In this document: positions 5,442 through 18,157 of the stretch, in pieces
How positions within the stretch are numbered: position 1 is the stretch's first letter
Layout of the letters: every line of letters begins with the position of its first letter
Source of the DNA: Defluviitaleaceae bacterium
Lineage (GTDB): Bacteria; Bacillota; Clostridia; Lachnospirales; WRAX01
Length of the DNA: 37,187 bases
NCBI GenBank assembly: GCA_009785555.1
Contig: WQWB01000001.1
Span: forward strand, 64,001-101,187
Direction of reading: 5' to 3'
Notes under the pieces: generated by a model
Seen by the model: the letters and a program-made list of their open reading frames with translations, nothing else
The model's database searches: none
What the model was told of the DNA's origin: nothing
Position numbers and translations under genes: made by a program

Positions 5442-8027
5442 TCAGTCTTCTTTAACAAACCCGCCGTCAACAAGCACGGCCAACGCGCTTGCATGCTTAG
5501 CGGTATTTACCAGCACAATCGGGCCGGTGCAGCCCATGCCGCTCTCCGCATAGATATCGTTTTGCATGAGGAGTGCGACGGCATCGTCCAAATCAAAAAC
5601 CTCAATGCCGGATATTTCCGCCGTTACGACTTCTTTCGGTACGTCTTTTTTAATCGGTATATTTACATCCGACGCGGAAGCGGCCTTTGCCAGCTTGATA
5701 TCAGCTAAGCCTGCCTTATTTGCGGAGGCAATTTCAGATTCGGTAACGGCAACCACATTTCCGTTAGATAACTGCGCCGCGTAACGCAACGCGCCGGCCA
5801 CAACAGGTGACCCGCTTGCGCGGGAGAGTATGAGGACGAGGCGCTTGTACCCCTCACCGATACCGGGGCCATAGCCGTCTCCGCTACTTTCGTACATGCC
5901 GCCGGTTGTGTAGGAGGAGAGTAATTTGCAGAGGATGTTGCCTGTGAGGCTGTCAGCCACAAGTACGTCAACGTCTGGGTTTAGCGCGTCGTTGCCGCGC
6001 AGGATCGCGCCGCCGTCTGCCCGTCCGCTTTCGCCAAGGTTTATGTTGTAGCCTTTTGCCTTTATGTCAAGCAATGCGCGTTCAACTGCCCTTGCGCCGT
6101 CAATATTTAATATGCCTACGGACGGGTTTTCTATACCGCATGCTTTTGCCGCGGCGATTCCGCCGATTGCGTTTTTTACCATCGCCGTAGTTCTATCCGT
6201 AGCGGTTGTGCCTGTTGTCGTGGCGAGGAATAATTTGCGACCCTTCGCCGGGGTAACGGCGCGGCCGACGGTGGAAACGCCTATTGGGAAGTTATAATGC
6301 ATGGTGACGCAGCCTTGCAAGTAGCCAGAATCAAGCAGTTCCTCCATTTTTTTGTGGGCGGATGCTTCGTCCGGCGTATCGAAGTTTTCGAGCTTGGTTT
6401 TGATGCCGCCTAAGTTACCGATGAGGACAACATCGAATGCGCCGTCTTTTGCCGCTTCCTCAGCGCCGTTTACTATGTTTTGGATACCGTGTTCGCTGCC
6501 TAAAATTGTTATGCCGACTTTGGTTTTAGCCGCCGAGGGGGTGGCCGGCCACTGGCCGATCGCTACAGCGCGTCCTTCGTCGTTCTTTACCTCGCCCTTA
6601 TTCCTCTCCAGAACAACGCTCACGCCGTCAAACAGATTCGTCATCCGCCCGAGGAAGAGGGAGCCTTTGCCCACTATCATCACACGGTTAAGCACACCTT
6701 CCGTAAGGTCTTGAATGGCGAAACCAAGGTAAGGTACGCCGCTAGGAATGTGCCCCTGCGTTGGTGCCCAGCCACTCATTCCGTGTTTGAGTACAAAATC
6801 ATTGATATCAGCGCGCTCGATTTCTTTTTTCATAACGGCAAGGGCGGCTATCATTTTGTAGTTCGCTTCTGGCACATCGCCAGCGCCTGCCGGTTTGGTG
6901 ATGTCCGGATTCTGCATTTCAACTGAGAATTTGTCAACGTCTGCAAAGCGTAACCCGCCTTTTTCAAGCGGCTTAGCCACAAGAGCGGTAATGACAGCTT
7001 GCGGCGATGAACCCGTGCCAACGGTGTGCGTGCCGACGAGCTCGGTATTTACTTCCGGCGAGATAAAATCGTTTTCGCTAACAATAGCGGCAAAACCGGC
7101 GATAACGTCTTCAAGTATCGGTAAACCCTTCTTTACGTGATCTTTACCGTTCATGCCAAGTTTGGCTGTTGCGCCTCCGGCGACGATAGCTACGTTTTTA
7201 AACGTACCCGCGCGCACCAATGATGCGGCCTGTATTAAAGCATGTGCGGGTGCGGCGCAAAAACCGCGCGTGTCTGAGCCGGTAGCTCCGTCTGCACCGG
7301 CCATTTCGGCGATGGCTTTGGCGAAGTTACCGCCGCCTCGCTGGTTCATATCGCCGCAAGCCTCTTCGGAGCATTCTATTATATAGTCAACATCAAGCGG
7401 GTTGATATTGTTTTTTGCGAATAAATTAAGTAAAGCCAACGCGCCGGAAGCCTTGGATACAAGGTTTTCAAATATAATGTGCGCGTTTAGGTTCGGGTCG
7501 ATATCGTGGGCGCGTTTGACGCAGCCAATTAATTTGCCTTCATGGTACAAGCCTTCGGCATGGTGGTTATTTACTTGTTCTTCAACCTCTTCGCATGTAT
7601 TGCCAGCGCCGATTTTGGCGGCTAGGGGTGCGCAAAGTGGGTGTGCCTCTAGCTTTGCTTTAACGGTAGGCGCAAAACAATCGCAAAGCATGACCAAGTC
7701 GAAAGAATCTGCTGCCTTAATAAGGCCGATAAACTCGTCCTGCGGCATTATTTCCCCCATCTTGCCGAAACGGCTATGCCCTGTTGGTTTATCATACCAT
7801 GGGAACTCTATTGTGCCAAGTTCGGGTGGCGTCATATTGCCGATGTAGGTTTGGTTGGGTGCGTATTTTACCGCGTCGTCAAAAGACCTGATGTGTTGTT
7901 TCAGTTGCTTCAGATAATCCGAATCGGGGTTGACGATGCGCTCCGTCGTTTGGGTTGTACCGCTGTGTTCGATCATGTCCGGTGTTTGCACCAATACGTA
8001 TGCTGCGCCTTTTAATACTGCTTTCAC
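5442..8027 (-). CDS. grdC-grdD: Glycine reductase component C, fused GrdC (beta) - GrdD (alpha)
   Basis: Component C takes the carboxymethyl group from selenoprotein A as an acetyl thioester and releases acetyl phosphate, conserving energy. Here the two subunits, normally separate proteins of roughly 510 and 380 residues, form one 861-residue polypeptide. Residues 1 to about 478 are GrdC, a FabH-like condensing-enzyme fold (RGFCAAPAHAL with Cys257, GWAPTQGHIPSG around 420-431). Residues about 503-861 are GrdD, a phosphate acyltransferase (PlsX)-like fold starting KVGITILGSEHG, with the acyl-carrying cysteine in GMGCTGP (Cys833). The join (about 479-502) is short, so the usual GrdC tail and GrdD head appear shortened. 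The reading frame is open throughout. It starts with GTG at 8027 after GGAGGAAATACAAA, 24 bases after the DUF4160 gene. Confidence 0.93.
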   Translation of the reverse strand: MKAVLKGAAYVLVQTPDMIEHSGTTQTTERIVNPDSDYLKQLKQHIRSFDDAVKYAPNQTYIGNMTPPELGTIEFPWYDKPTGHSRFGKMGEIMPQDEFIGLIKAADSFDLVMLCDCFAPTVKAKLEAHPLCAPLAAKIGAGNTCEEVEEQVNNHHAEGLYHEGKLIGCVKRAHDIDPNLNAHIIFENLVSKASGALALLNLFAKNNINPLDVDYIIECSEEACGDMNQRGGGNFAKAIAEMAGADGATGSDTRGFCAAPAHALIQAASLVRAGTFKNVAIVAGGATAKLGMNGKDHVKKGLPILEDVIAGFAAIVSENDFISPEVNTELVGTHTVGTGSSPQAVITALVAKPLEKGGLRFADVDKFSVEMQNPDITKPAGAGDVPEANYKMIAALAVMKKEIERADINDFVLKHGMSGWAPTQGHIPSGVPYLGFAIQDLTEGVLNRVMIVGKGSLFLGRMTNLFDGVSVVLERNKGEVKNDEGRAVAIGQWPATPSAAKTKVGITILGSEHGIQNIVNGAEEAAKDGAFDVVLIGNLGGIKTKLENFDTPDEASAHKKMEELLDSGYLQGCVTMHYNFPIGVSTVGRAVTPAKGRKLFLATTTGTTATDRTTAMVKNAIGGIAAAKACGIENPSVGILNIDGARAVERALLDIKAKGYNINLGESGRADGGAILRGNDALNPDVDVLVADSLTGNILCKLLSSYTTGGMYESSGDGYGPGIGEGYKRLVLILSRASGSPVVAGALRYAAQLSNGNVVAVTESEIASANKAGLADIKLAKAASASDVNIPIKKDVPKEVVTAEISGIEVFDLDDAVALLMQNDIYAESGMGCTGPIVLVNTAKHASALAVLVDGGFVKED

Positions 8028-8051
8028 TTTGTATTTCCTCCTAGTATCTGT

Positions 8052-8330
8052 TTAGCAATAGTGTTTAATTTCTCCAAAAAATTCATGCCATTTATTGAAA
8101 ACATCAGTTATTCTTGCTTCTATTACAGCTATAATATTATACAAAATCCTAAGCGGAATCTCTGACTTGTTGTGACACAACACACATTTGCCTTTTTTGG
8201 TTATCCAAACCTTTGTTGCATTCGCGGAAGGAGTTCCTTTTGATATATGGACATGTATAAACTCTAACGGTCTACCTTCGTTTGCCCAAAAGTATATGAC
8301 ATAAGAACCGATCTTAAAAACCTGCGGCAT
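8052..8330 (-). CDS. DUF4160-family small protein
   Basis: This 92-residue protein begins MPQVFKIGSYVIYFWANEG. The ATG at 8330 is chosen because GGAGGG lies seven to eight bases before it; a longer reading from 8354 has no such site. The PLEFIHVHI segment with its paired histidines is the hallmark of DUF4160 proteins, which usually occur as two-gene cassettes and have been suggested to be toxin-antitoxin-like. Function is not established. The gene overlaps the end of the preceding small gene by 17 bases, so the two are translationally linked. It ends only 24 bases before grdCD and is probably read through into it. Confidence 0.75.
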   Translation of the reverse strand: MPQVFKIGSYVIYFWANEGRPLEFIHVHISKGTPSANATKVWITKKGKCVLCHNKSEIPLRILYNIIAVIEARITDVFNKWHEFFGEIKHYC

Positions 8331-8583
8331 TTTCAAGCCCTCCGTCGTGTGCAAAACGAAAAATTAAGTGAACTGTTGATTCAATTATTTCTTGATAATT
8401 TTCGATATCAAATTGGGTAAACCCAATAATCCCGCACCATTCGTAAGATGGCAAAAAACAGGTTGCTGAATGAAAACCACCGTCTATGGGCTTTTCGATA
8501 TAAACTTTTATTTGACCGTCGTTCAGAATTTCAGAGTGAACAATTTCGGTATTATCTTCTAACTGTATGAATGGATACATCAT
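8314..8583 (-). CDS. Small partner protein of the DUF4160 gene (unknown function)
   Basis: An acidic protein of 89 residues, starting MMYPFIQLEDNTEIVHSE and ending GGLENAAGF. I recognise the type (YPF...DNTEIVHSE, LPSYEW) as the usual neighbour of DUF4160 genes in Firmicutes, but no function is known. The start at 8583 follows AGGTGATTTGTTA; a TTG six bases further upstream is possible. It overlaps the DUF4160 gene by 17 bases, a pattern typical of antitoxin-toxin pairs, though that role is only suspected. Confidence 0.7.
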   Translation of the reverse strand: MMYPFIQLEDNTEIVHSEILNDGQIKVYIEKPIDGGFHSATCFLPSYEWCGIIGFTQFDIENYQEIIESTVHLIFRFAHDGGLENAAGF

Positions 8584-8608
8584 TAACAAATCACCTGCTG
8601 TTTATAAA

Positions 8609-9085
8609 TTAATTTGTATATGAAAAATATTCGTTACGATTATAATTGGCATTGAATGGATCGTTGCGGTGCTCTGCCAGCAAACTCACAATCTGCGAAG
8701 TGACATTGTCGGCAGACTGATTGTCTGGCCGTATTCTATATTCGTTGGGTAAAGTATTCCGGCCTTTTATCATGTTGTTTATTTTAAAAGACTCTTTAAA
8801 GTTTTTGTATTCGTTTCCGTCGTTTCTATTTAAAATCCGCTGTTTAATTACATCATCATTATTCGAATATAAAGTAAAAATGACGTAAGAAGTATCTTTA
8901 AAATATTCGGTAATATCAAACAATCTCTTGTCATTTAGGTCGGACAGAATAATGTTCTTAAAGCCGTGCTTTATATAGTTTTTGCAAACAAGCATGAGAG
9001 TTTCGAATGTCATCTGCTCCTCATCTGCGCACGACATTTCCGTGAACGGGGTAAGGTTACTTAATTTGCAACTATCTAGGCGCAC
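8609..9085 (-). pseudogene. Beheaded P-loop kinase-like gene (C-terminal remnant)
   Basis: A reading frame of 158 codons looks like the C-terminal two thirds of a small P-loop nucleoside/AAA-type kinase: a central strand (FKNIILSDL), then YVIFTLYSNNDDVIKQRILNRND, which resembles the 'V.L.a..e.l..Ri..R' lid region of such kinases. The N-terminal Walker A segment (GxxxxGKS/T) is missing. The only start near the left end is a GTG lying inside a palindromic repeat (9080-9104), and the frame continues open into the neighbouring gene. It is most simply read as a gene cut by insertion or recombination at the repeat. It may still be transcribed together with the genes below it. Confidence 0.5.
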
Positions 9086-9104
9086 ACAGTGCGCTCCTAC
9101 GGAG
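9080..9104. repeat. Short palindromic intergenic repeat (family A) at a stop codon
   Basis: GCGCACACAGTGCGC (9080-9094) is a nearly perfect hairpin followed by TCCTACGG. Its RC form GTAGGAGCGCAC... is shared with the elements at 11286, 12640 and 18254. It overlaps the stop codon of the deacetylase gene and the start of the broken kinase frame. Confidence 0.5.
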
Positions 9105-9843
9105 CTATCAATCTGACAAATGAGTTAAACCCTGTGCTGCGGCTGATGCGTATGCGCCGCACCTCGAAATTGCAGAACGCCGTGTTGTGCATTCCCAAAT
9201 CGTGGCGTACGCCGAAGCTGTAGTATCCAGCCGCCATGTCTATAACAACTTGGTTGAAGCGGCCGGCTGGGTATGCAAGCGCGATTGGCCGCCGGCCCGT
9301 AAGTTCTTCAATCAGCCGCCGTGATTCATATAACTCAAATCGAAGCCGGTCGGGTTTATTAGAGAGAGAAGTTAAGTTTGTGTGCGTCATCGTGTGCGAT
9401 TCGATTATTACCAAGCCGGAATTGACCATCGTGAATAGCATTTCTTCAGTCAATCCGTGATTTCTTATAGAAGACCAAGTAAGAAAGAGGACTATTGTTG
9501 CATTAAATTCTTGTAAGATTGGAAATATTTCTGTATAATTTTCTAAATATCCATCATCAAATGTTACCATAACAGGTCGTTCAATGTTATGCAAATTATC
9601 GAAATCGTCGAATGTTATGAAGGTAAAGCCGTTTTCCACCAAAAACGCGATCTGCCGCCGAAACTCCGACGGGCGGATATATAGTTCGGTGAAGTAGCCG
9701 GGGTTATCTTCCGACGAGGTGTGGTACATTAATATCGGTATGCTGACTGCGGGCGGTTGCGTGGCTGCGGTAGGCATGCAGCTCGTCATGGATATAAGAC
9801 TTTGCAGGGATAGCGCAACCGTAAGTAAAAGATAGATAAACAC
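9097..9843 (-). CDS. Polysaccharide deacetylase (NodB domain), probable lipoprotein
   Basis: This is a carbohydrate esterase family 4-type protein of 248 residues that would remove acetyl groups from peptidoglycan or another glycan outside the cell. The N-terminus is hydrophobic and ends SMTSC (Cys22), a weak lipobox. NodB motifs are present: VTFDDGY (metal aspartates), ESHTMTHTNL (the H-x3-x-H metal pair), and YPAGRFN. The start is GTG at 9843, preceded by an excellent AGGAGGTG. The stop codon lies inside a palindromic repeat, so the C-terminus may have been trimmed when the repeat arrived. It belongs to the accessory stretch that separates grdB from grdCD and has no obvious link to glycine metabolism. 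Confidence 0.85.
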   Translation of the reverse strand: MFIYLLLTVALSLQSLISMTSCMPTAATQPPAVSIPILMYHTSSEDNPGYFTELYIRPSEFRRQIAFLVENGFTFITFDDFDNLHNIERPVMVTFDDGYLENYTEIFPILQEFNATIVLFLTWSSIRNHGLTEEMLFTMVNSGLVIIESHTMTHTNLTSLSNKPDRLRFELYESRRLIEELTGRRPIALAYPAGRFNQVVIDMAAGYYSFGVRHDLGMHNTAFCNFEVRRIRISRSTGFNSFVRLIAP

Positions 9844-10198
9844 AACAGCCCACCTCCTGCATAGATCATTTTATTTCATGCTTGATAAAGAAAACTTTAT
9901 TTGAAAGGCTGGATGGAATAACTCCTTTAAAATCCAGTTGAAATATTGTCATATTTAAAAAACCGTACGCCCGGCTTGAACTCGGCGCTAAATTCGGATT
10001 AATTAGGGAACCGCCTGAGCATTCGTTCCATAACAAGGTTGTTTCCGGCGATGCAGTTACCCCATGACATCATTGCATAGTTAATTAAATATTGGGATAA
10101 TCTGTTAATTTGAAATAGTAGATATTGTCCTAAATCCCAGGATATTCGTGATTTCCTGATATGGTTAAGATCATTTCGATATACCGCTGAAATCCGTA
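9844..10198. other. 355-base intergenic stretch without a recognisable gene
   Basis: I see no reading frame, tRNA or strong repeat. CTGGAT...ATCCAG (9909-9937 region) is a 6-bp inverted repeat ahead of the deacetylase gene, and a weak TAAAAT lies about 28 bases upstream of its start. The rest is AT-rich and may be eroded coding sequence. Confidence 0.3.
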
Positions 10199-11062
10199 TT
10201 AAAAATAACGTGCTTTTTCAGCCAATAGGTTACCATTTACATATAAAATCACTTTGGTATGTGTTTCGTTTTTGAACGCCTCTTTTATTGTTGGGATTAC
10301 CGTAGTTACGTTTATAATTACGCCGTTTACGTTAACTTCCAAAGTATATGAAGTACCTTCGCGTATGCCTGTTTGTTCGGCGTAAACCGTTCCGTCAACG
10401 ATAAGTTCTGTTACATTAAGTTTTCGGCTTACAATAATTTCCATATTATTGTAATTTGCTTTAATCAGCTTGCGGCCGCGCTTTGATGCTTGGCGCAACG
10501 CCGTTGTTGGCAAGATTTGCGCAATGGCGATTGTTTTTGGTATGTTGTCGGCTGTTTCGTCATCTTCTTCGGCATTAGCATTTATATTATCTTGATCTAT
10601 GGGTAGTTTCCGCATTTTTGCCCATGCAACAGTACCGCTGATTAAATAGTATATTATCCATGCTGAGAACATGATCTCAATGATAATAAAAAACTCAAAT
10701 TCACCATTTACTATGACAAAACCGGTAATGCCGAGAAGGATTAAGGTATCAATTGAAAAATAAACCAAAGCGGCGATTATCAAGCCCTTGAATTTTTTTG
10801 ATAAAATCCAAAGTACGACGTAGATTGACGTTGTTAACACTGCCGCCGTTATCCCCAATACCGCAAATGAATAAGTGGAGCTAAGTGTATGGTATGTTGA
10901 ATTAAAGTAAATTAAAAAGGCCGGGATAAACGCAGAAAATGGAAAGTACCAAGCTGACTGCGTAAGTATTAGTATGATGTTTACGCATGTTAGGAAGGTC
11001 ATCCCAATTAAATTTGCTCTTGATGAGTTGAACCTTTTTTGTAATTGCTTACGTGTCGGCAC
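10199..11062 (-). CDS. Hypothetical membrane protein with soluble C-terminal domain
   Basis: A protein of 287 residues that I cannot assign to a family. The first half contains about five hydrophobic segments (roughly residues 18-34, 38-54, 62-87, 93-117 and 122-145), then an acidic linker (NANAEEDDETADN). The C-terminal 100 residues are predicted to be mostly beta structure (NMEIIVSRKLNVTELIVDG, YTLEVNVNGVIINVTTVI), like a small sensing or binding domain placed in the cytoplasm or outside. It starts with GTG at 11062 behind AGGAGAAAAGAACT. It lies alone after the grd terminator and is AT-rich compared with the grd genes, which suggests a later acquisition. Confidence 0.65.
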   Translation of the reverse strand: MPTRKQLQKRFNSSRANLIGMTFLTCVNIILILTQSAWYFPFSAFIPAFLIYFNSTYHTLSSTYSFAVLGITAAVLTTSIYVVLWILSKKFKGLIIAALVYFSIDTLILLGITGFVIVNGEFEFFIIIEIMFSAWIIYYLISGTVAWAKMRKLPIDQDNINANAEEDDETADNIPKTIAIAQILPTTALRQASKRGRKLIKANYNNMEIIVSRKLNVTELIVDGTVYAEQTGIREGTSYTLEVNVNGVIINVTTVIPTIKEAFKNETHTKVILYVNGNLLAEKARYF

Positions 11063-11082
11063 AGTTCTTTTCTCCTGTTTTA

Positions 11083-11232
11083 TTATATTTTAACTGCAAT
11101 TTTTTTGATTAACATCAAATTTTTTATATATTCAAGTATTTTATCCGCAGATTCATTTATTTGAAAGTCTTTATATTCTTAGCTGTATTCGCCAACAGGC
11201 CAAACGACCCTTATTTCGGCTTCTTTGGGCAT
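11083..11232 (-). pseudogene. Tiny gene broken by one in-frame TAA
   Basis: ATG at 11232 follows AAAGGAATAAATT. The frame reads MPKEAEIRVVWPVGEYS, then TAA, and then continues in the same frame for 31 codons with protein-like content (EYKDFQINESADKILEYIK...) to a second stop at 11083. A single change in codon 18 (CAA, GAA or AAA to TAA) would explain it. A functional 17-residue peptide is also possible. No family recognised. Confidence 0.35.
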
Positions 11233-11256
11233 AATTTATTCCTTTGAAAATAAAAC

Positions 11257-11285
11257 CATAGAGGCGGTTAATTGCCGCCTCTATG
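11257..11285 (-). terminator. Rho-independent terminator of the grd operon
   Basis: An 11-bp perfect stem CATAGAGGCGG/CCGCCTCTATG with a seven-base loop is followed on the minus strand by GTTTTATTTTC. It lies 26 bases after the grdB stop. It separates grdB from the accessory genes and from grdCD, so grdCD must be transcribed independently or by read-through. Confidence 0.88.
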
Positions 11286-11310
11286 TCCAGACGAACAAAG
11301 CTCGCTCCTA
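11286..11310. repeat. Short intergenic repeat (family A), partial copy next to the grdB stop
   Basis: On the minus strand this reads TAGGAGCGAGCTTTGTTCG, matching the GTAGGGGCGAACTTTGTTCGC element at 18254 in most positions. It lies directly between the grdB stop codon and the terminator hairpin. Confidence 0.45.
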
Positions 11311-12615
11311 TTAAAATACCGTTTGCCCGTCAACTTCTGTACAGAGGGCGTTAAGCGCCTTCTCCACAAGGCGGCGGCGAAGTTTTTTCTCCTCGCCGGC
11401 TTCAAGCGTTGGGTTCCCTAGCGGATACGGTATAGCAACCGCCGGAACGATACGGTTTGCGCCTACGGTGAGGCTGATTGGAACTACAGTGCAGATATGG
11501 ACGACGGGTAAACCCGCGCGTTCAATCTCTTTAACCATCGTTGCACCGCAACGAGTGCACGTGCCTCATGTAGAGGTAAGGATAACGGCTTGTACCCCGT
11601 CGTTTACAAGTTCGGCGGCAATTTCCGCCGCGTAGGCCTTGGAGCTGGCGACGGACGTTCCGTTGCCGACGGTTGTATAGTAGTATTTGTGAAGTTTTTC
11701 GATCTTGCCTTCCTTTTCCATGTCGCGGAGGACATCGAGAGGAAGTACGCGGTTTGCGTCTTGGTTGGCGTAGACAGGGTCGTATCCGCCGTGTGCCGTT
11801 TCGGCGCAGTTGGCGCAGAAGGCGTTAAGGCCGTCGATATCATATTTGCCGTATTTGGACGCGGAGGATGACTCGATCCTGTCCGGGTTGCCTTTGGGGC
11901 AGATACCGCCTGATGTAACAAGGGCGACTTTTGTTTTAGGCATGTCTTTTATGGCGGGTGCTGGTGCTACATTGTCGAAGTGAGGCATTGGATATTCGGT
12001 AACGAACTCCTCACCTTTTAATTTCGCAACAAGCATGTCTACCGCGCGCTTTGAGCCGCGCTCTTCCGCAAACACGTTTTTACGGATACCGCGTGGGAAA
12101 TATGCTTCACACGTCGGCGCGCCGATTTCCTCGTTTTTGGCAAGTTTAAGAGTAAACTTTGCCAAAACAGGTGCGGCGGTACGCATTGTGGCTGCGCTGT
12201 CGCCCGTTTCCAGGATATACACGTCTTGCTTAAACCCGTCAACGCCTGGGTTCTCGCCGAACATTGCGGTAACGGCCGGTATGCCGAATTTTTCTTGAAC
12301 GGCCTTACAGACACCGCCGCAAGCCATACCGTAGCGGCCGGCGTTAAATGCGGGACCGGCTACAAAAATATCGGCTTTTTGGTCAGCGACGAAACCTAAG
12401 ATGGCTTCAAGCGCGGCGGGTGTATTTTCGTTAAAGTACGAATCCCCGCACACGATGGTTGCGACAATTTCGGCCTCGTCACCGAACTGTTGGCTAAGAG
12501 CCATACCTGGGCCAACTGCACCCAAGCGAAGTTCTGGCAAATGGTCGGCTTTTTCCTCGCCGCCTACGCCGCCGAAAAATTGGTTGATATAATGGACTAC
12601 ACGAATTTTGCTCAT
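11311..12615 (-). CDS. grdB: Glycine reductase component B, selenocysteine subunit (GrdB)
   Basis: GrdB, with GrdE, forms component B, which binds glycine and hands its carboxymethyl group to selenoprotein A. The gene encodes 434 residues including selenocysteine 350, encoded by TGA at 11566-11568; a conventional reading would stop there and restart at 11538. Sequence around it is LTST-U-GTCTRCGAT, so U-x2-C-x2-C is present. The selenocysteine position matches Eubacterium acidaminophilum GrdB. The N-terminus (VVHYINQFFGGVGGEEKAD) is typical and complete. A hairpin CGTTGC-GGT-GCAACG starts 13 bases after TGA, fitting a bacterial SECIS. Start ATG 12615 follows GAGGTGAAGCTAAATA. It lies 73 bases after grdA, with a palindromic repeat between, and ends just before a strong terminator. 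Confidence 0.96.
11539..11568 (-). promoter_or_regulatory. Selenocysteine UGA codon and SECIS-like hairpin in grdB
   Basis: TGA at 11566-11568 is followed on the RNA by a perfect 6-bp stem CGUUGC/GCAACG closing a GGU loop (11539-11553). Bacterial SECIS elements lie immediately 3' of the UGA and have a short stem with G and U in the apical loop bound by SelB, as seen here. Confidence 0.75.
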
Positions 12616-12639: not shown

Positions 12640-12689
12640 GTAGGAGCGACATTTTGGACGCTCGTGTGGCGAACACAGTTCGCCGCTAC
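12640..12689. repeat. 50-base palindromic intergenic repeat (family A) between grdA and grdB
   Basis: It begins GTAGGAGCG and ends CGCCGCTAC, and contains two hairpins, GAGCG/CGCTC and GGCGAAC-ACA-GTTCGCC (perfect). Its end coincides with the first base of the grdA stop codon. It may modulate grdB expression relative to grdA or stabilise the mRNA. Compare with 9080, 11286 and 18254. Confidence 0.6.
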
Positions 12690-13159
12690 TAGTATTTTCC
12701 GTACTGGGCGCGAATTGCTTCCATTTCGGCCACGATTTCGTCAACGTTAAGCACCATTTCCATCATGCCTATCTGTTCATCATAGATTGTTGGATCTACA
12801 TTACTTTTAAACTCTTCTTCCATACAGTGTAACACACGAAGTCCCAACGAGACTCCCGACAATGAACCTGCGAACGTAGGGTCGCCGTTTGTAACGGTTT
12901 CCGCGGCAAGGCCTGCAGCCTCGCCCTCCGCCGCGCCGATTACTACGATTACGTTTTCCGCACCGTAGGTATCCGCAGCGTTTTTAACCCTGTTTTGGTT
13001 CTCAAGATCCATTGCTCCTGCCGCCGTTCAGACAAAGCACTCGGTGGAGGAGAAGATAACTTCCGCACCGACAGCCTTTAAACATTCTTCAATCGCCGGG
13101 CCGGGGACGCCGTCCCTGTCGCCGATGACGATTACTTTTTTGTTTGCAAAGTATGCCAT
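12689..13159 (-). CDS. grdA: Selenoprotein A of glycine reductase (GrdA)
   Basis: GrdA is the small selenoprotein shared by glycine, sarcosine and betaine reductases; its selenol takes the carboxymethyl group and passes it to component C, and the resulting selenenyl-sulfide is reduced by thioredoxin. The gene encodes 156 residues. TGA at 13028-13030 encodes selenocysteine 44 in the motif [16 protein letters not shown] (C-x2-U), exactly as in Eubacterium acidaminophilum. A conventional reading would give only the 107-residue part from 13012. The start, ATG 13159 ([17 protein letters not shown]), is preceded by AAAGGAGCAACAAAA. I could not pick out a single convincing SECIS hairpin after this UGA. 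The gene lies between a lipoprotein gene and grdB. Confidence 0.97.
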
Positions 13160-13580: not shown

Positions 13581-14867
13581 TTAATACCCTCTCGCTGTCA
13601 TCCTGTTAAAGCCAAGCTCATTCGTCGCGCCTATGATGACTTGAATCTCCGCCTCTATGCTGCCGTCGGGGCGTAAGCTACCATCAAAGCCGCCTGCGAT
13701 TTTATCTACATAATCATACATGCCTATTACGCGGTCCATCGGCGGTAGGATGATGACCTCGTTGGCATTGCCGCCGGTGACGACCGCGTCAGCCGCCTTG
13801 TCTGCGTCGGCGAGGGATTGGCTCTTGCCGTCGCGCCCGGCATATTCATCCGTTACGATAACGGTCTTAACACCTTGTGCTTCGATTTTCTTGCAGTTCA
13901 TGATAAGGTCGGTGTCCGGGTTACCGAAACCTTCCTGGCTCACGATCGCACCGTCAAGGTTAAGGAACTTGGTGAGCTTGGCCGTCCAGTCGCTGGAACG
14001 CTCCTTGTCCATCAGAAAGACGTTTTCGTTCGTGATAATCACGCCGACGAAGTTGAAATCCTTGCCGTGGCGGGCATACATGTCGTGGATAATAGGATTG
14101 TTTTGGTGGTGGTAGGTCGTGTTTTTGTCGCATGCACTTACACAGTTGCCGCTGAGGATTGCTCCGTCCATAATTTCTGTCGGATAAAGGATTGTGGGAA
14201 CGATTTTCTTACCGTCAACGCCGTATACATAGGTATCATGTAACAAGCCTTGTGTTTGGAGCATGTATACATACCCAACGCGCGGTAAGTTTGGGAACGC
14301 TTTTACGCCATCCATAAGGGGTAAGGTTTCGTATGTTTCGATAACGTCCGGCGTTGCATTGCGCCCGGCTTCACCAAGGTAGGCGGCGGCTTTGAGACCG
14401 GCCATACGGGCGGATGCCTCGTAGTCGTATTGGCTTAAATCCGCGGTCGGTTCAATAACCAGCACGATATTGTGGGTTTTGGAGAATGGCGTATAGTCCG
14501 CGCCGGGGCCGCTCATGTCGATAATGCCTTCTTGGAAGCCTACGATGCGGCCGCATGTGACGACCGCCGCGCCGCTAAGCACGTGCGTACGTCCTTCACC
14601 CACCGTCTCAACCTTGTTAAGCATACCGGGGAAAACCGCGCCTGAGCCGGAGACCTTAACGCGCGGTTCGATAACGTCCTTAACGGGTGTGATGCGTGTT
14701 TTTTCACCGGGGGACGCAAATTCGACCTTAACGTCTTTAATGAACTCGTCCTGCTTTATAAGGGCGATAAGCTCGTCCTTGTTGATTGTCAATATTCCGG
14801 CGTTCACTTCGGTATTGGCACCAAAGGAGAGGCCTTCAATATTGATTCTGCCTAGTTCTAATTTCAT
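13581..14867 (-). CDS. grdE: Glycine reductase component B, alpha/beta proprotein (GrdE)
   Basis: GrdE is the substrate-specific glycine-binding part of component B. It is made as a 428-residue precursor and cleaved between Asn and Cys to give two subunits, with a carbonyl group (pyruvoyl-like) formed at the new N-terminus that binds glycine as a Schiff base. The site is visible: SGNCVSACDK, with Asn241-Cys242, the same position as in Eubacterium acidaminophilum. Other conserved stretches are GEGRTHVLSGAAV and DMSGPGADYTPFSKTHN. The gene is full length, 11 bases after trxA, with GAGGTG before ATG 14867, so trxA and grdE are one transcript. The GrdE sequence rather than a sarcosine/betaine-type paralogue argues for glycine as substrate, but this rests on overall similarity. 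Confidence 0.96.
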   Translation of the reverse strand: MKLELGRINIEGLSFGANTEVNAGILTINKDELIALIKQDEFIKDVKVEFASPGEKTRITPVKDVIEPRVKVSGSGAVFPGMLNKVETVGEGRTHVLSGAAVVTCGRIVGFQEGIIDMSGPGADYTPFSKTHNIVLVIEPTADLSQYDYEASARMAGLKAAAYLGEAGRNATPDVIETYETLPLMDGVKAFPNLPRVGYVYMLQTQGLLHDTYVYGVDGKKIVPTILYPTEIMDGAILSGNCVSACDKNTTYHHQNNPIIHDMYARHGKDFNFVGVIITNENVFLMDKERSSDWTAKLTKFLNLDGAIVSQEGFGNPDTDLIMNCKKIEAQGVKTVIVTDEYAGRDGKSQSLADADKAADAVVTGGNANEVIILPPMDRVIGMYDYVDKIAGGFDGSLRPDGSIEAEIQVIIGATNELGFNRMTARGY

Positions 14868-14878
14868 CGGAACACCTC

Positions 14879-15196
14879 TTATATGTTCTTTTTAATCATT
14901 GCTTCAATATTTGTTTTGTTTGCGTCGTCTTTGGTCAGCTCTTCAATCTTTACGCCGTCTTTATAAAGTGAAACGGTAGGAAGGCCAAGGACTTTTTGGC
15001 TAATGGCAAGCCTGCGCGCGCCGCTGGTGTTGAGCTTCACGAACTTAACCTGTTTGCCGTACGTTTCGCTTAAGGCGATAACGTCAGGCATAAGAGCCTC
15101 GCATGGTACGCAACCGTCGCCGTAAAAATCTACCAGCACGAAACCCTGCGTGTCCAGTACCTCGGCTTGGAATGTGTCTTTGTCAACTTGTAGCAT
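14879..15196 (-). CDS. trxA: Thioredoxin of the glycine reductase system
   Basis: A 105-residue thioredoxin that would re-reduce selenoprotein A after each turnover. The redox motif is C29-V-P-C32 within [12 protein letters not shown], where the usual Trp-Cys-Gly-Pro-Cys is changed: Gly replaces Trp before the first Cys and Val replaces Gly. Deviating motifs of this kind are known for grd-linked thioredoxins of amino-acid-fermenting anaerobes. The cis-proline ([11 protein letters not shown]) and the overall fold are intact. It starts at ATG 15196 after GAAAGGAG. Normally trxB (thioredoxin reductase) precedes this gene; here it does not. Instead a low-confidence frame, a nuclease element and hdrA lie upstream. 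Confidence 0.95.
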
Positions 15197-16198: not shown

Positions 16199-18157
16199 CT
16201 ACGGCTTGCAAATAGCTTCTATACCCGCCAAAATCTGCAGATTAGAGAATCCGCGTATGTCCATAGCACCGTTAGTACACGCAACGGCGCACGCGCCGCA
16301 ACCTTGGCAGATGGCCTCGTTTACGGCTGAGGTATTCCTGTCATCGTTTATTGAAATTGCTTGGTAGGGGCACATATGGACGCACGCGCCGCAGCCATTG
16401 CACAAAGTTTCATCCGACGATGAAACGCATGGATTACCAACGATTTCATCCTTGGATAATATACCGAGTGCCTTTATCGCCGCTGCGCCGGCCTGGGCGA
16501 CGGTTTCAGGTATATCCCTAGGGCCTTGGCATGCGCCGGCTAGGAGGATACCCGCCGTTGGGCTTTCAACCGGGCGGAGCTTAGGGTGTGCCTCAGTAAA
16601 GAACTTATTGGTGTCAACGCTTGCGGAGAGTACTTTACCAAGATTTTTTGCGTCCGATTTTGGCTCGGCCGATGTGGCCAGTACGACCATGCCGGCTTCT
16701 AATGTGATACTTTCGTTCTCAAGCATATCATATACGGCGACGCGTAAGACACCGTCCGCATTGACGATTTTGCCAGCTTGACCCTTAATGTACTTTACGC
16801 CGTAATTTTCCGCCGCTCGTCTGTAAAATTCGTCAAAGTTCTTGCCGGCCGTACGTACGTCTATATATAGCACAGTTACGTCCGTATCAGGGTATTTTTC
16901 CTTAATAAGCATTGCGTGCTTAGCTGTATACATGCAGCAGATTTTGGAACAGTATGGGTTGGAACGTTCGTCTAAACCACGTGAGCCGACACATTGGATA
17001 AAGACTACGCTGCGAGGTTTTTCACCATCCGATAAACGCTTCAACACACCGCCCGTCGGGCCTGCGGCGTTCATTAACCGCTCAAATTCAAGGGAGGTTA
17101 GCACGTCTTTCGATTCACCATATAAGTACTCACCATATTTATATGGCTTCATCGGGGAAAAGCCTGTCGCGACTATGATCACGCCGTAATCCCTCTCTAC
17201 GGTTTTATCTTCCTGTTCAAACTCAATCGCGTTAAGGTCGCAGACTTTGGCGCAGAGGCCGCATCCGCCGGCTTTTAACTTAATGCAGGCATTTTTATCA
17301 ATAACCGGTATATTGGGTACGGCTTGGGCAAATGGCGTATAGATGGCGGTACGGTTAGCTAACGCTTCATCGAATTCACTAGGTATTTTCTTTATCGGGC
17401 ATTTTTCCATGCAAACGCCGCAGCCTGTGCAGGTTTCTTCATCAACAAACCGGGCTTTTTTGCGAATTTTGACGGAGAAGGAGCCGATAAAGCCTGACAC
17501 TTCATCGACTTCGGAGTATGTGAAAATCTCAATATTTTTATGCCGCGCCGCGTCAACCATTTTTGGTGTTAGGATGCAGGCAGCGCAGTCCAGCGTGGGG
17601 AAGGTTTTGTCCAACTGCGCCATAACTCCGCCGATGCTGGGCGTTCTCTCCACGATATCAACTTTATATCCAGCCTCGGCGATGTCCAGCGCGGTCTGTA
17701 TACCCGCGATGCCGCCGCCGATAACCAGTGCCCGCTTCGTAACGCCGGACGTGCCGGGCGTGAGGGGCTTGTTTTTGTGGACTTTTGCGACTGCGGCGTT
17801 TGTAAGGCTTTCCGCTTTGGAGGTTGCTTCGTCCTTATTTGTGTGAACCCATGAGCAATGTTCGCGTATGTTGGCGATTTCGGCCATGTATGGGTTGATG
17901 CCAGCTTCAGCGGCGGCGGCGCGGAAAGTGGCTTCGTGCATGGATGGCGAACAGGCCGCAATAGCGATGCCGGTGAGGTTATGCTCTTTTATAGCGTCGC
18001 GTACGATCTTCTGCCCGGCCTCGGAGCAAAGGTATGGGTAATCGCATGAGAAGGCAACGCCGGGCATGTCTCCGGCTTGGTCCGCCAATCCTTTGACATC
18101 AACCGTCGCCGCTATATTTGTGCCGCAATGGCAAACGAATACGCCGATTTTTTCCAT
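16199..18157 (-). CDS. hdrA: HdrA-like iron-sulfur flavoprotein (heterodisulfide reductase subunit A family)
   Basis: HdrA carries the FAD that splits electron pairs in flavin-based electron bifurcation and passes them through many Fe-S clusters. This 652-residue protein is full length. In order: the N-terminal HdrA domain (GVFVCHCGTN), FAD-binding GGGIAG (147-152) in a thioredoxin-reductase-like fold, the HdrA-type cysteines (CAAC at 191-194), a ferredoxin motif C243-x2-C-x2-C-x3-C253, further cysteines at 292-306 and 403-408, and a C-terminal double ferredoxin (C586...C596, C617...C627). Start ATG 18157 follows AAGGATAAATTACC. It is encoded with hdrC, but no hdrB or hydrogenase large subunit is in the window. 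Electron partners are inferred only. Confidence 0.93.
   Translation of the reverse strand: MEKIGVFVCHCGTNIAATVDVKGLADQAGDMPGVAFSCDYPYLCSEAGQKIVRDAIKEHNLTGIAIAACSPSMHEATFRAAAAEAGINPYMAEIANIREHCSWVHTNKDEATSKAESLTNAAVAKVHKNKPLTPGTSGVTKRALVIGGGIAGIQTALDIAEAGYKVDIVERTPSIGGVMAQLDKTFPTLDCAACILTPKMVDAARHKNIEIFTYSEVDEVSGFIGSFSVKIRKKARFVDEETCTGCGVCMEKCPIKKIPSEFDEALANRTAIYTPFAQAVPNIPVIDKNACIKLKAGGCGLCAKVCDLNAIEFEQEDKTVERDYGVIIVATGFSPMKPYKYGEYLYGESKDVLTSLEFERLMNAAGPTGGVLKRLSDGEKPRSVVFIQCVGSRGLDERSNPYCSKICCMYTAKHAMLIKEKYPDTDVTVLYIDVRTAGKNFDEFYRRAAENYGVKYIKGQAGKIVNADGVLRVAVYDMLENESITLEAGMVVLATSAEPKSDAKNLGKVLSASVDTNKFFTEAHPKLRPVESPTAGILLAGACQGPRDIPETVAQAGAAAIKALGILSKDEIVGNPCVSSSDETLCNGCGACVHMCPYQAISINDDRNTSAVNEAICQGCGACAVACTNGAMDIRGFSNLQILAGIEAICKP

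Follow-up and report, generated by a model that had tools for sequence, protein, structure and literature searches.

Introduction

In the reduction of glycine, sarcosine and betaine, component C carries out the step that conserves energy. In the closest described systems, of the Peptoclostridium acidaminophilum and Clostridium sticklandii type, it is made of two polypeptides, GrdC and GrdD, encoded by separate genes in an operon with grdA, grdB, grdE and trxA. The GrdC part shares its fold and the position of its nucleophilic cysteine with FabH (KAS III), and the GrdD part has the acyl-phosphate-forming fold of PlsX. Unlike FabH and PlsX, which serve fatty acid synthesis, component C takes its acetyl group from a selenoprotein, and its product is acetyl phosphate for ATP. 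Kohlstock et al. 2001 reportedly found Cys359 to be the active thiol of Eubacterium acidaminophilum GrdD. The subunit arrangement of component C is, to our knowledge, not known, and a sequence search found no solved structure that matches it.

Here we describe a locus in which component C is encoded by one gene. The stretch analysed, referred to below as the window, comprises 37,187 nucleotides of a Defluviitaleaceae genome (assembly GCA_009785555.1, contig WQWB01000001.1, positions 64,001 to 101,187). A search of literature available without subscription found no description of a GrdC-GrdD fusion, and the fusion represents a novel variant of a known enzyme.

The Fused Gene and Its Product

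The fusion is natural and real. Both family models are matched within a single frame, as had been proposed from the DNA letters alone, and the gene thereby departs from the usual form of component C, two separate polypeptides, on which its chemistry does not hinge (Table 1). The GrdC part passes the NCBIfam equivalog cut-off of its model (450) over the full length in the profile search, and the GrdD part passes its own (350) with the first 21 model positions absent. Like the P. acidaminophilum and C. sticklandii proteins, both parts are nearly complete and carry both invariant cysteines; unlike them, the window protein contains neither the GrdC C-terminal helix nor the GrdD N-terminal helix, two traits defined in this analysis and not in publications, and has a flexible linker instead. 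The original prediction had placed the two cysteines at residues 257 and 833 and the join at about 25 residues. Both cysteines lie exactly there and are invariant across 61 aligned relatives, and the join is indeed a short linker, although its length comes to about 21 residues. In split GrdD proteins, whose start codons were guessed by rule, the counterpart of Cys833 stands at about 346-365, most commonly at 359, which fits the published Cys359 in residue number.

Table 1. Location of the fused gene, its parts and the neighbouring Grd genes in the window
Feature	Position	Strand	Remarks
Fused GrdC-GrdD gene (component C, beta + alpha, of glycine/sarcosine/betaine reductase)	5442..8027	-	861 codons, GTG start, no interruption
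GrdC (component C beta) part, residues 3-477	6597..8021	-	NF040746 1-477/477, 790 bits; thiolase/KAS III-like fold
Linker, residues 478-498, ~21 residues	6534..6596	-	in place of the terminal helices of split relatives
GrdD (component C alpha) part, residues 499-857	5457..6533	-	NF040747 22-379/380, 492 bits; PlsX-like fold
Cys257 codon, GrdC part	7257..7259	-	KAS III-type nucleophile position; invariant; PF08545 begins at 252
Cys833 codon (GMGC), GrdD part	5529..5531	-	invariant
AGGAGG ribosome binding site of the fused gene	8037..8042	-	~10 nt upstream of GTG; read from the sequence
grdB/grdF-type selenoprotein gene	11311..12615	-	TIGR01918/TIGR01917; in-frame UGA 11566-11568, then U-G-T-C motif
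SECIS element of the grdB/grdF-type gene	11528-11565	-	RF01990 SECIS_4
grdA selenoprotein gene	12689..13159	-	PF04723; UGA 13028-13030 (ECFVU motif)
grdE/grdG-type proprotein gene	13581..14867	-	NF040793 682 bits, below cut-off 780
trxA (thioredoxin)	14879..15196	-	PF00085

Structure prediction of the window protein by AF2, which the original prediction had proposed for the join, gave two confident domains (mean pLDDT 90) connected by a disordered linker at residues 481-498 (pLDDT below 50); the pTM of 0.60 leaves the placement of the two domains open. In the Foldseek search, the GrdD part matched PlsX and the GrdC part matched FabH and thiolases, at about 13-18% identity to the FabH and PlsX of fatty acid synthesis.

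Exchange of Terminal Helices for a Linker

The split proteins carry two conserved amphipathic ends that resemble each other. The C-terminal motif of split GrdC reads [IV]-K-x-[LM]-I-A-x-A-M-[RK]-[DE]-F-A-x-x-L-L, the N-terminal motif of split GrdD reads [IV]-K-K-[MLI]-I-[GA]-x-[TV]-F-x-E-I-A-[DE]-x-[LI]-E, and their hydrophobic positions 1, 4, 5, 8, 9, 12, 13 and 16 coincide. A profile built from the GrdC tail and run on the GrdD N-helices scored 86 of 94 above the 99th percentile of shuffled sequences. Across split loci, the helix profiles reached a median of 41 bits for the tail and 38 bits for the N-helix, with a lowest leave-one-out score of about 9; fused joins never rose above -6 and -10, respectively. 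By this scoring, neither helix was found in any of the 44 fused loci, which include a few near-copies of the same genome, and no fusion of the read-through type, keeping both helices, occurs among them. Matches to the GrdD model show the loss as well: for full-length split genes they start between positions 1 and 5 (with few exceptions, such as G590), and for fused genes no earlier than position 12 (with one exception, G526, at 6). The linkers that occupy the joins vary in sequence and are often rich in Ala, Ser, Glu and Lys. When the split pair L006 was modelled by AF2 as one chain read through the stop, helices formed at residues 488-508 and 515-537, at a pLDDT of about 60-76 and with the single chain tethering them artificially.

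When encoded by two genes, GrdC and GrdD are probably docked to each other through two similar helices, the amphipathic one at the C-terminus of GrdC and the one at the N-terminus of GrdD; in the fused form the short, flexible covalent linker would take over from this helix-helix contact. Mutual docking is suggested by the exact exchange of both helices for a linker in several lineages. We see an even chance that they are a matched docking pair, swapped for a linker about seven times, and that the fusions thereby expose the interface of component C.

The competing account that survives best, though we hold it to be unlikely, accepts the fusion as functional but lets the lost helices serve translation or another partner, such as GrdA, GrdB or homo-oligomerisation, and disappear through deletion at the gene border. 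A single in-frame deletion would take the stop, the spacer and both helices together; the proposed pairing is a reading of the sequences, and two similar helices could each bind something else. Against this, the helices are recognisable in every scored split locus and in no fused one, at about seven places on the tree, and their likeness and common hydrophobic pattern suit a helix pair. Moreover, loss of the stop in pairs that share a frame would fuse the genes without loss of the helices, and no such case was seen. An initial impression that all split pairs share a frame was dropped: it arose from the selection made by the tblastn step, and the offsets over all split loci are 78/30/24.

Recurrence of the Fusion among Bacteria

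Fused genes, carried by some gut and environmental anaerobes, are in the minority: they are common within the order of the window and rare elsewhere. The same fusion, which the original prediction had suggested seeking in relatives, is present in 30 of the best 80 loci in other genomes, the remaining 50 being split. In the sample of the window's order, about 11 of the 24 genomes whose GrdD passes the cut-off carry the fused gene, compared with 1 of 102 in the Synergistota sample and 2 of 22 in the Spirochaetota sample; in the class sample, among 45 genomes with a match, the window's own genome alone is fused. Most fused relatives are metagenome-assembled genomes (MAGs), but a cultured strain, Terrisporobacter mayombei DSM 6539, is among them. 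Split genes of the same sequence, which would have spoken for a defect at the join, were absent among the nearest relatives, the nearest of all (L002, a Defluviitaleaceae MAG, 73% identity) being fused. Together with the Treponema/Spirochaetes MAGs L003, L004 and L051, L002 shares the architecture of the window protein and forms one supported clade with it, although the linker sequences are not conserved. An open frame of 801 residues in G591 (L183) was rejected as a fusion; it holds GrdD, but GrdC lies in a different frame, and neither helix is missing.

Trees were built without the join region, from 97, 66 and 126 rows. The fused/split label changes 7 times on these trees, and well supported branches require 6-7 of the changes. 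Such changes alone do not tell gain from loss; they are read as fusions, not separations, because a separation would need two conserved helices to be rebuilt. On this phylogenetic reading, the fusion arose several times independently. That a single old fusion was inherited by all fused relatives is very improbable: the fused loci do cluster on the tree far beyond shuffled labels, but at least 6-7 changes are forced by supported branches, a constrained tree with one fused clade is rejected (p-AU 2.5e-6, at a cost of 481 log-likelihood units), a fused locus (L013) and a split one (L005) are 76% identical, and repeated fission is unlikely, since both conserved helices would have to be recreated.

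Two further placements on the tree deserve mention. The fused genes of the Spirochaete and Cloacimonadota MAGs L003, L004, L042, L051 and L077 are nested beside the clostridial clade of the window, and this may reflect gene transfer between phyla or mis-binned contigs. L182/L184 (G936, from the Spirochaetota sample) is a divergent fused GrdC-GrdD at 40-49% identity on a long branch, and may represent a further independent fusion.

The Operon around the Fused Gene

As in the P. acidaminophilum and C. sticklandii type, component C is co-encoded in the window with grdA, a grdB-type selenoprotein gene, a grdE-type gene and trxA, all on the strand of the fused gene. The component B genes come nearest to the sarcosine (GrdG) and glycine (GrdB) models but score below the cut-offs of both, and the substrate may be either glycine or sarcosine. 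Between the grdB-type gene and the fused gene lie 3.3 kb (8028-11310) of 38% GC, against 51-53% in the Grd genes. Besides unknown ORFs, this AT-rich segment encodes a DUF4160 protein and a polysaccharide deacetylase, and it gives the impression of having been inserted into the operon. Upstream of trxA, an HdrA2-like flavoprotein gene (16199-18157, minus strand; NF040770, 797 bits, below the cut-off) is a possible candidate for electron input, and none of the window genes scanned was identified as coding for thioredoxin reductase. Further away, a match to the aminoglycoside/hydroxyurea kinase family (PF04655; 23395-24252, plus strand) adjoins an amidohydrolase.

The fused gene is also the sole component C of its genome. 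Searches with NF040746 and NF040747 found no second, separate GrdC or GrdD in the window's genome or in the fused genomes checked; each of these has one match to either model, both in the fused frame, except G540, where the GrdD match lies in two pieces at contig ends. It is thus highly unlikely that the fused protein has been repurposed to form acyl phosphates outside any Grd system: grdA, grdB and grdE were not found on the contig stretch at L003, L042 and L067, but Grd genes adjoin the fused gene in the window and at most fused loci, no other component C is at hand in the genome, and both equivalog cut-offs are passed.

Integrity of the Join

Between the conserved cores, the window has 123 nt of DNA, whereas in split loci 228-303 nt separate comparable points; over the whole set, the core reference points lie 152-271 nt apart in split loci (median 174) and -6 to 57 nt in fused ones (median 30). 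A missed stop or frameshift is excluded because the linker is too short to hide two missing ends. That an assembly or sequencing artefact masks a stop or frameshift at the grdC-grdD border is therefore scarcely credible, even for a source genome fragmented into 109 contigs, as the DNA for the two ends is absent altogether and not just out of frame, and fusions occur in many unrelated assemblies, that of the T. mayombei strain included.

Concluding Remarks

The product of the window gene is quite probably a natural, single-chain component C belonging to a selenium-dependent glycine (or sarcosine) reductase, in which helix docking has been swapped for a linker. Judged by family membership, its chemistry is most likely that of the two-gene component C. 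The GrdC part, with Cys257, would accept, as a thioester, the acetyl group set free from Se-carboxymethyl-GrdA, and the GrdD part, with Cys833, would carry out the phosphorolysis of the acetyl thioester to acetyl phosphate.

For annotation, searches that expect two genes would miscount component C in such genomes. A single-chain component C is an attractive target for structure work, and the recurrent exchange of helices for a linker points to the site at which GrdC and GrdD may be in contact.
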